In this document: positions 23,072 through 29,965 of the stretch, piece by piece
Position numbering within the stretch: the stretch's first letter is position 1
Layout of the letters: each line of letters begins with the position of its first letter
IMG/VR virus record: IMGVR_UViG_3300036780_000217
Span: 1-46,853 of that record
Strand: one strand, 5' to 3'
DNA length: 46,853 nucleotides
Origin: a virus
Position numbers and translations under genes: made by a program
Notes under the pieces: generated by a model
Databases searched by the model: none
What the model saw: the letters and a program-made list of their open reading frames with translations, nothing else
Told to the model about the DNA's origin: nothing

Positions 23072-25027
23072 TTAGCTCGCAGCCGTGACCTGGATTTGAA
23101 CGGCGCGACCGACTTGGACGATGTTGAGGATGTACTGAGCTTCTGAGTTCGTCACGACCGACGTGCGCGGGATCAAGAATCCTTGGACGGCGGTCGTTTG
23201 CGTGTTATCGCTGCCCAGTAAGAACTGCCAGCTAGTGATCTGTTTGCTGGATTTGAGACCGCCTAGATATGCCGTGGCAATATCGAGCGCGTCGCGGCCG
23301 GCCGGGTTCAACCAGTCAGGTGACGTCGGGTCGGTATTCATCGCTTCACCAACGACGACTCCGAGCCGCTGGCTGAGCGTGTCGACGATCAGTTTGAGCA
23401 TGCGTGCGTCATTGATCGGCGTGACGCCGTCGGACATCATGCCGTGCGGCAGGCCCAACGCGGGACCGCGCGGCGAGCGCGGCATGTAGTTGAGATAGAG
23501 CAAGCCGTTCTGCTGGCGCGTATCGGAGTCCGACGAGCTGACGAGGTTGATGCCGCCGACGATTTGATCGGTCGAGTTGACGCCTGCCACGCCGCCGACG
23601 GGCTGGTTTCCGGGGTAGACGTAGGATGGCAGCCCCGAGATGACGCCCGCGAGCTTGTCTTGCGGCGGAACGTAGAACGTGGTCCCCGAGAGATCGTCGA
23701 AGACGCTATCCCAATCCATATCGGTGATCAGCGACGCGCCGGCGATATCGTACTCGCTGCGCATGAGGATCGCTTCGGCGGTCGTCGTGCCTTCGGGGTA
23801 GGACCAGTGGGCAATGGCGTTCTCGACGATCGCGAACGCCTCGAGCGTTTGGGCGACGGTGGGATCGGTGAGTCCGGCGATAGCGAACTGCGCGCCCGAA
23901 ATGAGGCCGCTGAGTGCCTGCATGCCGGTGCGCCCGAAGATTCCCCCGACGCCGATCAGATCGGCCGAGGTGAGCCCTGACGTGCCGTCGGTGCCACCCG
24001 AGGCGCTTGTCGCGCCGACCGTCGGCGGCTGCGTCCCCGAGCCTGCCGAAGCGGTCCAGCGGGACGATCCCGAGACACCGCGCACACTGCCGTTAACCGC
24101 AGCCAACAGACTCGCGTTGAAGGTCGGGGCGTCGAACGCGCCGCCGGCCGTCGCGTAGGCAATGAGGCCGTTCCAGCCTTCGGCCGGCGCATTTGGATAG
24201 TTGATGACGACTGCGATGACGGGAGCAGCGATCCACGTTCCACCCTGCAGGAAGACCTGTACGACGGCGCCGTTGGCGCGCGAGCCAGTCGTCATACGCG
24301 TCAGGATGAACGACGTACCGGAGGGTGCGACCCCGCCGCTCAGGGCGGTCGGGGCCGTTGGCGTGATCGTCGTATGGCTACCGGTTGCGGTTCCGCTGTA
24401 CATAATCGAGTTCTCGCTGGAACCCAGTACGAGTGCCGAGAGCTTGATCGCAGATCCGCTCAGCACCGCCGGAGCCATAAACGGGGGCTTGTTGCCGCCC
24501 GTGGGCGCCTGACCGACGCCAAACGACCGATTGAACAACGCTACGAGCGCTGCGGCGATGGTCGCTGTTGTATCGGTCGACAGCACGGTGTACGGGCCGA
24601 CCACGATGGTCTCACTGCCGGCGGTAAGGGTGATCGAAACGGTGTCGCCGGCCATCGGAGATCCACCGATGGTGAGCGTGCCGGTTGCTGGCAAACCGCC
24701 GCATGGAACCGTGATCGTCGCTGCGACATCGGTGCCGTCGGTGGCACGCACGCCGCCGAAGGCTTGACCTTCGGGCATCGCGCTGAGCGCTGCGCGCACG
24801 AGTGCGTTGTCCGACATCGTATCGGTGCCGAAGATCGCCTGGCAGCTCGCGGAGTCCGAGAAGCGCGTGAAGACGTTGACCGGTCCATCGTTGGCGCCGC
24901 CGACGATCGCATAGAGATCGGTCTGCGGTCCGGTTGCCGGCGCCGGGAGCGCCTGGAGGATGTCGTTATAGACGCCGTCGGACTGGAAGTTGCCCGGGTC
25001 GGTGTTGGTAATGACTCTTGGCGGCAT
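23072..25027 (-). CDS. contractile tail sheath protein
   Basis: The 651-residue product has the sheath pattern: an N-terminal segment (GPQTDLYAIVGGANDGPVNV), variable beta-rich insertions (residues about 110-330) that make it longer than P2-type sheaths, and the conserved C-terminal domain. That domain includes PSYVYPGNQPVGGVAGVNST, NARMLKLIVDTL-like sequence and the final strand VQVGRAVQIQVTAAS. The sheath contracts to drive the tube into the cell, so this gene defines a myovirus-type tail. The start follows GAGGAGC. Confidence 0.88.
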   Translation of the reverse strand: MPPRVITNTDPGNFQSDGVYNDILQALPAPATGPQTDLYAIVGGANDGPVNVFTRFSDSASCQAIFGTDTMSDNALVRAALSAMPEGQAFGGVRATDGTDVAATITVPCGGLPATGTLTIGGSPMAGDTVSITLTAGSETIVVGPYTVLSTDTTATIAAALVALFNRSFGVGQAPTGGNKPPFMAPAVLSGSAIKLSALVLGSSENSIMYSGTATGSHTTITPTAPTALSGGVAPSGTSFILTRMTTGSRANGAVVQVFLQGGTWIAAPVIAVVINYPNAPAEGWNGLIAYATAGGAFDAPTFNASLLAAVNGSVRGVSGSSRWTASAGSGTQPPTVGATSASGGTDGTSGLTSADLIGVGGIFGRTGMQALSGLISGAQFAIAGLTDPTVAQTLEAFAIVENAIAHWSYPEGTTTAEAILMRSEYDIAGASLITDMDWDSVFDDLSGTTFYVPPQDKLAGVISGLPSYVYPGNQPVGGVAGVNSTDQIVGGINLVSSSDSDTRQQNGLLYLNYMPRSPRGPALGLPHGMMSDGVTPINDARMLKLIVDTLSQRLGVVVGEAMNTDPTSPDWLNPAGRDALDIATAYLGGLKSSKQITSWQFLLGSDNTQTTAVQGFLIPRTSVVTNSEAQYILNIVQVGRAVQIQVTAAS

Positions 25028-25099: not shown

Positions 25100-25372
25100 T
25101 TACTGCGCCGCGGGTGATCCCGAACTGGGCAGTGCCGCAACGTCTCGAGAGATCGACGTCATCTTGACCGGCTCGGGGGGCGCCGCGGCTTGCTCCGGTG
25201 CGGACTTGACGCCGCGGAGATGCTCGAAATGTTCGGGGTGACCCGGCGTCGAGACGCGGCGTCGAAAGGTCGGGTTACTGAGCGCCGCTTGCGCATCGCC
25301 ATCGAACAGCACGTCACCGCGTTTGAACTTGCGGCCGTTGATCGTGAGTCTTTCGTGCACCGTGACGGTCAT
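25100..25372 (-). CDS. small head-tail module protein, hypothetical
   Basis: This 90-residue protein starts with a compact beta-like segment (VTVHERLTINGRKFKRGDVL), followed by a proline- and alanine-rich disordered tail. It overlaps the upstream gene by four bases and precedes the sheath gene. Similar small proteins occur at this site in other myovirus operons, but I do not recognise this one. Confidence 0.55.
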   Translation of the reverse strand: MTVTVHERLTINGRKFKRGDVLFDGDAQAALSNPTFRRRVSTPGHPEHFEHLRGVKSAPEQAAAPPEPVKMTSISRDVAALPSSGSPAAQ

Positions 25373-26259
25373 GAGGGGCCTCCAACATAGACGGTTCCCG
25401 AAGTGTCCCTCGGGCCAGAGGTGAGCAGTTTAATGGCGCCCACCGGCGTCGCCGGCGACGTCAACATGATCGTGTAGATCACGGTGTAAACAAGGTGACC
25501 GAGAAAGAGTGAGCCGGCGCTCTGCGAGTCGTCATCCCAACCAACGCCGTCGTTGATGACGCGCAGCGCTGTGCCGTCGGGCAGCAGCAAGAACGTGTTG
25601 AACGACGTCCCGACGTTCTCTTCGATCGCTTCTTCGAGCATCGACCGAGTGTAGGGGTCCGATGCCCAGACCGAGATCTGTACGCCGCGCTGGAAGCGCC
25701 CGACGGGATAGGCGATCGTGCCTGACGCGCCGACATTGCAGAGGAAGCTGACGTTGCTCGTAACGCTGACGACGCCAGCTGCGGCCGTGGCGCTGATACC
25801 ATCGAGGGCGAGCGCGTTGATCGCGGCGGCTACTTTCGCGGCGACCGATGTCGGGGTGTCGCCGACGACGGCCTGCACGTACGCATCGGCGAGATCGCCG
25901 AAGACGGTGTGCACGTTGATCGGCGAGCCGATCGCGCCAGTGAGCGAGAACGTGATGGTCGACGTCGTCACGGCGGCAAGCAGTGGGCTCGTCGGGAGGT
26001 TTGCGACCCAGTTCTCGGTGGGAGGGAGCGGGGAGAAGACTTTTGCCTTGAGCGGCCAGAGCTGAATCTGCCAGTTCCCGTCGCCGGCGGCGAGGATATT
26101 GCCGACTTCGGTGATCAGCGGGTTACCGCGGATAATCTGACCATTTTGGATGGCAACTTCGACGTTCTTCTGGTTGATGAATGTCGCGCCCTCAAGGCCC
26201 GAGATGGCGGCCTTTATACCATTCCCGAGGGTAGTGAGCACGTCATCAAGTCTTGCCAC
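25369..26259 (-). CDS. phage structural protein upstream of the sheath
   Basis: The GTG start at 26259 overlaps the receiver gene by 14 bases. The 296-residue product has a helical start (RLDDVLTTLGNGIKAAISGL), a beta-rich centre with an insertion of Ig-like or repeat type (VFGDLADAYVQAVVGDTPTS), and a conserved-looking end region (ASDPYTRSMLEEAIEENVGT, then HLVYTVIYTIMLTSP). Position between head genes and sheath suits a neck or tail-terminator protein. No firm family assignment. Confidence 0.6.
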   Translation of the reverse strand: MARLDDVLTTLGNGIKAAISGLEGATFINQKNVEVAIQNGQIIRGNPLITEVGNILAAGDGNWQIQLWPLKAKVFSPLPPTENWVANLPTSPLLAAVTTSTITFSLTGAIGSPINVHTVFGDLADAYVQAVVGDTPTSVAAKVAAAINALALDGISATAAAGVVSVTSNVSFLCNVGASGTIAYPVGRFQRGVQISVWASDPYTRSMLEEAIEENVGTSFNTFLLLPDGTALRVINDGVGWDDDSQSAGSLFLGHLVYTVIYTIMLTSPATPVGAIKLLTSGPRDTSGTVYVGGPS

Positions 26260-26611
26260 TGTCGACTACCCTACGGATCTCCTTAGCCAGTGTGGTGCGA
26301 TCGTTAAACGGTTTTGCGACGGTCCCGTACCCGAGCTTTCGGAAACCCGGGATCGCCTGGCGCGCGAGCGTGACCATGATGATCTTGCCTGCAAGCTTTT
26401 CCCTGGCGATGATGGCCGCCGCGTCGGCACCGTTCATCGGAGGCATATTTACGTCGAGAAGTACGACATCGGGGCGAAACTTGCGGCACAGCGTGACGGC
26501 ATAGGCTCCGTTTTCCGCCTCACCTACGACCTCGAATCCACAATCGATGACAACCGCAGCGCGTAGCACATTTCGAGCGTGATAGGAGTCGTCGGCAATG
26601 ACAAACCTCAC
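26246..26611 (-). CDS. stand-alone CheY-like response regulator receiver domain
   Basis: The 121-residue product (GTG 26611, overlapping the upstream gene as GTGA) is a complete receiver: acidic pair in VIADDSYHAR (Asp 7, 8), phosphoacceptor Asp 53 in VVLLDVNMPPMNG, switch Thr 81 in IIMVTLAR, and Lys 100 in VAKPFN. There is no DNA-binding or enzymatic output domain, as in CheY. No histidine kinase is encoded in the window. Such a protein would accept phosphate from a host kinase and could act on chemotaxis, motility or signalling. It is transcribed and translationally coupled within structural genes, which is unusual. Confidence 0.9.
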   Translation of the reverse strand: MRFVIADDSYHARNVLRAAVVIDCGFEVVGEAENGAYAVTLCRKFRPDVVLLDVNMPPMNGADAAAIIAREKLAGKIIMVTLARQAIPGFRKLGYGTVAKPFNDRTTLAKEIRRVVDSGKT

Positions 26612-27390
26612 GACCAAAGCCGATCGGCGATAATGACGTTGCCGTCGAATCCAACCTGGCCGGTGCTGTGCACTTCCATGATCTCGTAGCGGTCGCCGTT
26701 GTTGGCGTTGATGCGATCCTGAACTTCCAGCACGACGCCAGGGAGATTCGGGGCAAAGATTAGGTGATGCGTGCGGTATTGCTTGGTCGGCGAGTTCTTC
26801 GGTAGCTGGCCATCGCGAACGCGATTGAGGGGTTGGATACCGACCGGAACGCTGGCACCCGACGTCGCCTCTTCGCTGAACGAATACATTCCGCTCGTGA
26901 GCACGAGATATTTTTCGATACCAATACGCGTCGCGCCATACCCGGTTTGCACGACGGCGAACTCGTCCTCCGGCTGCTGGCTGACGGCGCCCGCATCGGT
27001 GAAGGGGCGCGTGATGAACGAGAGCGTCTCGGTTCGCACGAACAGCGTCTCAGCCATCGGCCGCATCTGCGCGAGGTAGAAAATGCCGCCGTCGCTCAGA
27101 TAGCCCTGAGTGACGAGGAAGTCTTCTTCCTGCAGCTGCCGGCGGTCGCAGTTCGCGATGAAGACCAGGAGGTCGAAGGTCTGATTCTCGATCGCGACCT
27201 TCGACGACTTGCGAATGTTGGCCGGGAAGTTTGTGAAGAGCGGCGACCCAGAGATGACGCTGCTGTTGGTGCTATTGGTGCGCCGGTAGACGTTGTAGGG
27301 TTGCCCAACGACAGCGCCGACGACGCCGAGGCCGGTATCGATTGCCTGGTCGATTTCCGGCATTACGCCGAGCCAAGGAAGGAAGGTCAT
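26608..27390 (-). CDS. structural protein of the head-tail region, hypothetical
   Basis: The 260-residue product shares one base with the previous stop. It has beta-rich sequence: VVGQPYNVYRRTNSTNSSVI, VAIENQTFDLLVFIANCDRR, then a C-terminal segment APNLPGVVLEVQDRINANNG and GDRYEIMEVHSTG. This resembles head-tail joining or minor capsid proteins that bear a small beta-barrel. The exact role (adaptor or neck) is not determined. Confidence 0.6.
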   Translation of the reverse strand: MTFLPWLGVMPEIDQAIDTGLGVVGAVVGQPYNVYRRTNSTNSSVISGSPLFTNFPANIRKSSKVAIENQTFDLLVFIANCDRRQLQEEDFLVTQGYLSDGGIFYLAQMRPMAETLFVRTETLSFITRPFTDAGAVSQQPEDEFAVVQTGYGATRIGIEKYLVLTSGMYSFSEEATSGASVPVGIQPLNRVRDGQLPKNSPTKQYRTHHLIFAPNLPGVVLEVQDRINANNGDRYEIMEVHSTGQVGFDGNVIIADRLWS

Positions 27391-28226
27391 TACGCAACGC
27401 AGCCCCTTCCGCCGCCACCGCTGAACTTGCGCACGTACGCCTCGCCACCGATCGCTCGCGCGAGCTGAAAGACGAACTCTTTATAGAGACCGCGGCGCGC
27501 ACGCACTTCATCGCCGCGGAACGCGACGCCAGCGCCGCCAGCACCGGTCGCAGACTTGAGCCACAGCGAAAGCCCCGCTTGGGTCATGCTGTTCGCGAGG
27601 TAATCGCAAACCGCGATGAGGCCGTAGAGCGTCGACTGTGCGTAGCTAACCGGATTCGTGAAGGTCGCGATGATTGGGCAGACCGACCCCGGGTTATCGG
27701 TGACGAGGTTGGTCGTGCCGGTGGCGGCCGAAGAGAGCGCGATCGCGCTGGCGCCGGGTCCCGTGATCAGCAGCTCAGCGAAGTACGGCGGCATGTAGGC
27801 CGGAGAGAACTGATCTGCCGGCGGCGCACCGACCGCGGAGTAGCCGGCGGCCGCGAGCGTAGCGTTGGCATTGATAGCGATCGCGGAGTTGAGCGCGATC
27901 GAGTACAGCACCGAAGAATCGCTCGGGTTGATCGGATTCGGCGGAACCTCGAAGTCAGCGCTGCGGACCGCGTAGTCGACCGTGACGGCATCGATCGTGT
28001 ACGCGAGGAGATCGCCGACCGTCGGCCGGCCGCTAAGCTTGAACGAGCCCATGCTGACGCCGGTAAGGAGCTGCTCCTCGTCCGGCTGCATGTTGTTCAT
28101 CCGATATTCGAGATCTTCAACGTGGATCTCGAATCGCCAGCCGAAGAGCCTACCGGCTTGCGCCGTTCCCGCGAAGGGAAGGCCAAGGTGCCGCCGGATG
28201 GCGACCTTTTGTTGCTGAGTGAGCAT
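27390..28226 (-). CDS. structural protein downstream of the capsid gene, hypothetical
   Basis: This 278-residue protein begins with a helix (TQQQKVAIRRHLGLPFAGTA), typical of short head-completion proteins, then YRMNNMQPDEEQLLTGVSMG. The centre is beta-rich and mentions GDLLAYTIDAVTVDYAVRSA. The C-terminus (YKEFVFQLARAIGGEAYVRK) ends in a glycine-rich tail. It lies where connector genes are expected. It may combine the functions of separate small connector proteins, but that is inference. Confidence 0.6.
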   Translation of the reverse strand: MLTQQQKVAIRRHLGLPFAGTAQAGRLFGWRFEIHVEDLEYRMNNMQPDEEQLLTGVSMGSFKLSGRPTVGDLLAYTIDAVTVDYAVRSADFEVPPNPINPSDSSVLYSIALNSAIAINANATLAAAGYSAVGAPPADQFSPAYMPPYFAELLITGPGASAIALSSAATGTTNLVTDNPGSVCPIIATFTNPVSYAQSTLYGLIAVCDYLANSMTQAGLSLWLKSATGAGGAGVAFRGDEVRARRGLYKEFVFQLARAIGGEAYVRKFSGGGGRGCVA

Positions 28227-28468
28227 TAGGCATGCGTATCGGGCGCAGCGTCAACCGGCGCGTCGTCCTCCGGCACTTCTTCGGGAATGACGACGTACTT
28301 AATCTTAAACCTTTTCATGATCCCGATCAGCGCAGGATCGGTGAACGTCTTGCCCTTTTTGAATATAAGGATGCCACTGATCGTCGAAACGCGCGCGTCC
28401 TTGGTCACCATAACCTTTACAGGAGCAGGGGCTTTGGGCGAATCTTCTTTGGTGCGCGGCATAGTCAA
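28226..28468 (-). CDS. small protein after the major capsid gene
   Basis: This 80-residue protein shares one base with the next gene. It has a basic core (VSTISGILIFKKGKTFTDPA, then IMKRFKIKYVVIPEE) and an acidic tail. Compact beta folds of this size after the capsid gene are often decoration or head-assembly factors, but there is no specific motif. Confidence 0.55.
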   Translation of the reverse strand: MTMPRTKEDSPKAPAPVKVMVTKDARVSTISGILIFKKGKTFTDPALIGIMKRFKIKYVVIPEEVPEDDAPVDAAPDTHA

Positions 28469-28531: not shown

Positions 28532-29965
28532 CTAGATCGCCGACGCGACTTCGATCTCGACAGCGCGCTTGAAGCGGCACCAGTCGGTCGTTCCGAAGAT
28601 CGTCGGGTTGGAACCCTTGTCGGTGCCAGACTCGAAGTCCCCGACCCACTTGTAGGTGGATTTGATGACTTCTTGCATGCGGTCCAGCGGGCTCTGAATG
28701 ATGAACTCGACGCCATCGATCCACTTGATGACTGCGGTTGCGCCGCCTTCCTCCTTCACCCGGTTCACACCGTAGTGCTGACCCTGGAAGTCGTATTCGG
28801 TGAGCGCGTCGCGGCCGTAGACGATCGCGTGACGGATCATGAAGCCGCCGCCCGGCGCGGTGTATGCCGGCGTGGTGTTGGCCTCAACGAACTCGACACC
28901 GAGACCCTTGGCGATCTTACCGTTGGTGAAGACCGGCGAGCGATCCCACTGGCCCATGGTTGCCGTGTTGAAGCGATCGTCGGCGTAGAGCTGCTGTATG
29001 ACGAGCGCGTCGACCGTGCACATGTACAGGCCGTTGCGCAGCGGCGGAATGCCGCGGCTCTTGAGCTTGCCGACTGCCGTCGCCACCATGTCGTAGGTGA
29101 GGGTGTCCGTCTCGGTCAGCTGGTAGCGCGTCTGCTTGGAGTTCGGCCGCAGCACGAACGAGCCATCCATCCCTTGCGGGTTGAAGACCGTGGTGCTCGC
29201 CGAAGGATCCATCGCCACGATGCGGTCGCCGATCGCACACGTGATATTTCCATCGAGACCCAGAACCGCAGAGGCGCCGATCGCGACGCCGGCGGTCTGC
29301 GCGCTCGAGATGTTGACCGTATCCCACACGATGCTGGTGACGTTAGCCGCATACGCTACGGTGCCGGACGACCCGCCCAGGACGAGTATCGGGATTTTGT
29401 TCGTCGGTGAGACTGCGACCGGCAGGCCATACGACGGCGCGAGCGCCGTCAGCAGGTACTGCGTATCGAAGCCGTACCCGTTGTCGACGTGAACGCTATT
29501 GCCTGCCGTGACTGCTCCCAACGCATACGTGTCGCCGGTCTCGTAGGACCGGTGCATCCGCTGCGCGGCGATGTAGTCCATGGTGAGACCGGCGCCGCGG
29601 GCAAGCTCCTCTTCGTTGTTGACGAAGAGGTCGGCGATCAGGGTCGTTTCTTCTTCGATGTTGAGATCGAGGCCATCAGCGTACTTGTTGAGCACGGCGT
29701 TCCACTGCTCGAAGGAGCGCTGCGAAGGGGTGAGGCCGTTATCGAGACCGGCGTTAGCCGCCGGGTTAAGCGGCGAGGTTTTGGCGGTCAGCGCGGCCGG
29801 GCGTGAGAACGTCTTCGTCTCGCCAATACGAGCTTCGAACTTCTCCTTATTTGCCGCGTCGCGATAGCCAAACTGTCCTCGAAGCGCGTCGTGGTAGTAC
29901 TTGTCCAAGTACCCGATCTGCTCGATGACATTGGAAATCGCCGCCGGAAAGTTGTTCAGTGACAT
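28532..29965 (-). CDS. major capsid protein
   Basis: The 477-residue product starts after an AGGAG site. It lies between scaffold and connector-type genes. The N-terminus contains a helical arm (NVIEQIGYLDKYYHDALRGQ), then RDAANKEKFEARIGETKTFS and TPSQRSFEQWNAVLNKYADG. The C-terminal part has strands typical of HK97-fold shells (GLGVEFVEANTTPAYTAPGG and ALTEYDFQGQHYGVNRVKEE). The strong ribosome site, the hairpin after the gene and its position support the capsid role. Similarity is by pattern only. Confidence 0.75.
   Translation of the reverse strand: MSLNNFPAAISNVIEQIGYLDKYYHDALRGQFGYRDAANKEKFEARIGETKTFSRPAALTAKTSPLNPAANAGLDNGLTPSQRSFEQWNAVLNKYADGLDLNIEEETTLIADLFVNNEEELARGAGLTMDYIAAQRMHRSYETGDTYALGAVTAGNSVHVDNGYGFDTQYLLTALAPSYGLPVAVSPTNKIPILVLGGSSGTVAYAANVTSIVWDTVNISSAQTAGVAIGASAVLGLDGNITCAIGDRIVAMDPSASTTVFNPQGMDGSFVLRPNSKQTRYQLTETDTLTYDMVATAVGKLKSRGIPPLRNGLYMCTVDALVIQQLYADDRFNTATMGQWDRSPVFTNGKIAKGLGVEFVEANTTPAYTAPGGGFMIRHAIVYGRDALTEYDFQGQHYGVNRVKEEGGATAVIKWIDGVEFIIQSPLDRMQEVIKSTYKWVGDFESGTDKGSNPTIFGTTDWCRFKRAVEIEVASAI

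Follow-up and report, generated by a model that had tools for sequence, protein, structure and literature searches.

A gene for a stand-alone receiver domain with an intact active site lies flush between the genes of a candidate head-closure protein and a probable tail terminator in a 46,853-nucleotide virus record (IMG/VR record IMGVR_UViG_3300036780_000217, analysed at its full length and referred to as the window), which by its gene content is a temperate contractile-tailed phage. The reading we prefer, and which we hold to be plausible if somewhat short of probable, is that of an acquired accessory receiver, coupled to the late genes, that would act on host signalling late in infection.

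Receiver domain and gene boundaries

The receiver frame (26246-26611, minus strand) runs from a GTG start at 26609-26611 to a TGA stop at 26246 and comprises 121 codons (MRFVIADDSYHARNVLRAAVVIDCGFEVVGEAENGAYAVTLCRKFRPDVVLLDVNMPPMNGADAAAIIAREKLAGKIIMVTLARQAIPGFRKLGYGTVAKPFNDRTTLAKEIRRVVDSGKT). In a Pfam profile search, the translation matched PF00072 with 64.4 bits and an E-value of 1.3e-17 (curated cut-off 30.2 bits), and the catalytic set is complete, consisting of the acidic pair D7/D8, the phospho-Asp D53, T81 and K100. The 121 residues are accounted for by the receiver alone, with no output domain and specifically no LytTR output domain, so that the original prediction of a complete receiver devoid of an output domain was confirmed on both counts. 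Judged by the length of the frame, the full active site and the strong Pfam significance, this is not a chance ORF. Helix alpha4 is shortened, with a T81-K100 spacing of 19 residues versus 22 in 47 of 55 receivers; the switch position (T97, K-3) is non-aromatic, whereas CheY-type receivers are aromatic there, and the T+1 residue is Leu, where a small residue is usual. With Leu at T+1 and Thr at the switch, canonical switching might have been lost. No second receiver was found elsewhere in the 46.8-kb record, and a search of the record for the histidine-kinase ATPase domain (HATPase_c) returned no match, so that any phosphodonor of the receiver would be either host-derived or a small molecule.

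The receiver start overlaps the stop codon of the upstream gene as GTGA (4 bases), and its 3' end overlaps the start of the downstream gene by 14 bases. Both overlaps had been described before, and both gene boundaries are backed by homology: the N-terminus of the downstream protein, MARLDDV, aligns with MADLSDV in relatives, and the upstream protein is matched by relatives to near its C-terminus. No Shine-Dalgarno sequence was seen ahead of the receiver start, Shine-Dalgarno-like motifs for the downstream gene sit within the receiver coding sequence, and nothing resembling a promoter or a minus-strand terminator was detected in 25300-28300 with a sigma-70 consensus scan, which is a weak test outside sigma-70 types. 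From this combination we infer, as the simplest reading, that the receiver is translated together with the late structural genes; the arrangement, with overlaps on both sides, implies the joint translation with virion genes that had been claimed.

Structural neighbours and the junction in related loci

The location in the head-tail module was borne out by the surrounding genes, with the major capsid protein, scaffold, portal, terL and terS upstream of the receiver, and sheath, tape measure and baseplate J downstream. The record also encodes an integrase, an amidase endolysin, a DnaC-like loader and a Dam methylase. The major capsid protein (28532-29965, minus strand) was assigned via phrog_1357 (E 4e-18) and 30% identity to the phiKX1 coat protein, the tail sheath protein (23072-25027, minus strand) via phrog_23 (E 6.5e-12) and alignment with the phiKX1 sheath, and a connector-region protein (27390-28226, minus strand) via phmmer matches and its occurrence at the same place in relatives. 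With 651 residues, the sheath is longer than that of phiKX1 (497 residues) and contains additional internal stretches; the connector-region protein, at 278 residues, is about twice as long as homologues of 124-159 residues in several relatives.

AlphaFold models of the two genes flanking the receiver were built on 42-43 sequences and compared with the PDB using Foldseek. The model of the downstream neighbour (25369-26259, minus strand; mean pLDDT 82), which also aligns with relatives, matched phage neck and tail-terminator chains with an E-value of 3e-5; the TM-scores are low because of an extra domain. The model of the upstream neighbour (26608-27390, minus strand; mean pLDDT 78), which is recognised by a profile of relatives with an E-value of 3.4e-18, gave weak matches only (E 0.02-0.04, probability 0.91-0.99), to neck and head-closure proteins such as XkdH and the Pam3 neck. 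In view of the weak fold matches upstream and the better ones downstream, we tentatively name the former a head-closure (neck) protein and regard the latter as a probable tail terminator.

Close kin were sought by comparing single window proteins (receiver, major capsid protein, sheath and terL) with viral_contigs, where none of the four retrieved a close relative, and the two neck genes had no match in named phages. Distant kin were reached via the capsid protein, which led to phiKX1, and then by profile searches. These provided 31 loci by the major capsid protein profile, 80 by the portal profile in GTDB genomes (Acetobacteraceae or one of its genera appears in many of the titles), 80 through the terminator-like gene, and 80 by the portal in IMG/VR. 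The sets overlap, and 266 loci from IMG/VR, GTDB prophages and phiKX1 were examined. None of the 266 contained an intact receiver (phmmer and receiver profile; many of the underlying records are fragments), and no PF00072 match above the cut-off was obtained in 33 and 40 whole records underlying the related loci. The junction was spanned by 205 of the loci, corresponding to 162 distinct junctions once near-identical ones had been collapsed. In 140 of these, the flanking genes abut (at most 60 bases apart), while 11 carry inserts of more than 500 bases. One of the 11, in L262, is doubtful, as the same locus also yields the two genes in abutting form; the remaining ten consist of one conserved ORF of about 315 residues, which is glycosyltransferase-like by eye and had no Pfam match in the two members tested (L138:6884-7831(+), L004, L006, L103, L144, L172, L187, L191, L289 and L310).

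The absence of an intact receiver from the 266 loci, together with the 140 abutting junctions, argues that the receiver gene is an insertion. By this comparison, the head-closure/tail-terminator junction is one that tolerates cargo, with the receiver as a private accessory gene at that place. Of the notion of a receiver embedded in the head-tail module, the position stands, but the gene appears as private cargo at a cargo-tolerant junction and not as a feature of the module; the search of related phages and prophages for receivers at this position, as originally proposed, found no equivalent. Like a moron, the gene is accessory, being absent from relatives and unusual in composition; a promoter and terminator of its own, which a moron would also have, were not seen in 25300-28300 within the limits of the sigma-70 consensus scan.

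Separately, one relative carries a 142-residue ORF (MTVIVWKDGQMAADSLAATEYG...; L017:12788-13216(+)) just upstream of its head-closure-like gene. It is proteasome/Ntn-hydrolase-like by eye and has no Pfam match.

Origin and lineage of the receiver

Compared with 163 windows from the other genes of the record, the receiver gene falls at the 1.2 percentile for codon fit and the 0.6 percentile for GC3. Two or three further short genes of the record are equally unusual. Such an atypical composition is as expected for a later arrival of the receiver gene. Searches of phages, plasmids, IMG/VR and 40 genomes with related prophages yielded no near-identical receiver. The best full-length identities are 37-41%, the closest receiver reaches about 42% over 102 residues, and short partial matches go up to 48%. 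The phage receiver scores 64 bits against PF00072, versus 84-116 for many host receivers. A receiver alignment scan of viral_contigs returned three response-regulator places; as far as these were inspected, none lies in a structural junction like the present one. The original prediction had named two observations that would speak against it. For the first, absence from relatives combined with a near-identical host gene as the mark of a recent chance insertion, the absence was seen, but near identity was not, the best match in the sets searched reaching only about 38-42% identity. For the second, loss of the Asp or Lys residues in relatives, no orthologue was found at all. The prediction was overturned on neither ground.

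In a tree of 56 receivers, the phage receiver pairs with one LytTR-like receiver (96/83), which is also short in alpha4. A LytTR-type ancestry is only suggested by this pairing, because the branch is long. The best PDB match, 6wsh, which we take to be an EutV-type ANTAR regulator, suggested an ANTAR/EutV ancestry, whereas the tree pairs the receiver with the LytTR-like one, so that either ancestry is at most tentative. Of the LytTR-type regulators compared (the L193 receiver and the BtsR and LytR models), one supplies this tree neighbour with its short alpha4, and the full-length BtsR model is matched with 53.6 bits; they differ in possessing a LytTR output domain, and identity is about 38%. 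Chemotaxis CheY resembles the phage receiver in being stand-alone and in its identical catalytic residues, but it has an aromatic switch residue in place of Thr and an alpha4 that is three residues longer, and no chemotaxis gene context surrounds the receiver here.

Proposed action, precedents and alternatives

In favour of the preferred reading of an accessory receiver acting on host signalling, we count the complete active site without an output domain, the insertion deduced from the relatives, the non-structural-looking cargo at the same junction in ten distinct relatives, the atypical composition, the overlaps on both sides, the lack of a kinase in the record and the precedents given below; the unusual T+1 and switch residues count against it. 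A stand-alone receiver gene with an intact active site would have been inserted flush between the head-closure-like and tail-terminator-like genes. We infer that its product would appear late, through translational coupling to the structural genes, and would take phosphoryl groups from, or dock on, host histidine kinases or phosphotransfer proteins. It could be a sink for phosphate or a decoy, or it could act on a single host partner through the modified face of alpha4; host output would be altered during particle assembly. The proposal that the phage taps host chemotaxis gained no specific support: with Thr at the switch, Leu at T+1, a short alpha4 and a LytTR-like nearest neighbour, nothing points to an effect on the flagellar motor of the kind exerted by CheY.

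According to the original prediction, a receiver at this position is not known from any standard phage structural operon. A caveat is needed: Alteromonas phages V22 (ORF30; MN877442 25749-26198) and A5 (gp11; OP481051) possess stand-alone CheY-like receivers, not at the neck but in the tail-fibre module, which their authors propose to be a class II auxiliary gene (PMC7289586, PMC10579305). As in the window, these receivers lie within the structural cluster of a tailed phage and overlap the downstream gene. They differ in belonging to the tail-fibre/host-recognition module and not to the neck, in the normal length of alpha4 and in being common to Alteromonas phages, whereas the receiver described here is private; V22 ORF30 matches it with only 24.6 bits, across 32 residues. 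In Pseudomonas phage LSL4, the protein PIT4 is described as the product of an early gene and as binding histidine-kinase domains (PMC10714779). By description only, it is akin to the proposal made here in being a phage protein that acts on host two-component systems, although the receiver is proposed to act late. Phage structural modules with a stand-alone receiver have been published before, and what is new, with respect to the open-access literature, is the neck position, the phage group and the receiver lineage; further precedent beyond V22 and A5 is possible outside that literature. The receiver constitutes a second, apparently independent case of such a gene within a structural operon, from phages far removed from those of Alteromonas, and locates a cargo-tolerant junction between head closure and tail terminator in phages that are common as Acetobacteraceae prophages.

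An adoption of the receiver fold as a neck component, assembly chaperone or packaged cargo would be in keeping with a gene placed between, and translationally coupled to, those of the head-closure-like and tail-terminator-like proteins, and with the altered alpha4 face and switch position. We nevertheless consider it unlikely: all 162 distinct junctions in relatives are without the receiver, which is therefore not needed for building the neck, the active site is intact, though a purely structural role would not require one, and the other cargo at the junction is not structural-looking. Distinctly unlikely is an action chiefly in the lysogen, by which the receiver would change host two-component output. 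The integrase and the accessory nature and atypical composition of the gene would fit such a lysogenic conversion, but the gene is buried in a late operon with overlapping neighbours and, as far as the sigma-70 scan can tell, lacks its own promoter-like and terminator-like sites. Less probable again is a functionless passenger, recently inserted at a permissive junction; the gene is private to this record and the receiver diverged in its PF00072 score, but the frame is open, all catalytic residues are retained, and translation of the downstream gene is preserved by the tidy coupling at either end. We give very little credence to the further idea that host two-component signalling serves the phage to time or adjust its late events, either with phosphorylation of a receiver made alongside the neck proteins controlling head-tail joining, or with the receiver packaged in the neck as a kinase decoy and delivered ready-made into the next host. 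An assembly artefact that fused host DNA to the phage contig is scarcely credible, even though the sequence is one metagenomic contig for which the collections searched gave no close relative, since the flanking genes are complete and homologous to relatives at the junction, and overlaps of 4 and 14 bases with the receiver are not expected from a random join.

A different receiver-like protein of about 160 residues is conserved in 19 of the 266 related loci, near the terminase and encoded on the other strand from the structural genes (L123:2401-2880(-), L115:825-1379(-), L119:2829-3293(-), L062:7350-7901(-), L099:557-1027(-) and 14 more). These pseudo-receivers were rejected as orthologues of the neck receiver, given a score of 1.5 bits, the other strand and the other place. 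Taken together, the neck receiver and the pseudo-receivers suggest repeated recruitment of receiver folds in this phage group, and phage interference with host two-component signalling would thereby become testable. The pseudo-receivers score 17-32 bits against PF00072, and their phospho-Asp is replaced (by E, A, H, C or another residue) in all aligned members. The acidic pair is kept in most members, and the motifs QDGCHVM and LVDFLFRAGRKG are conserved.
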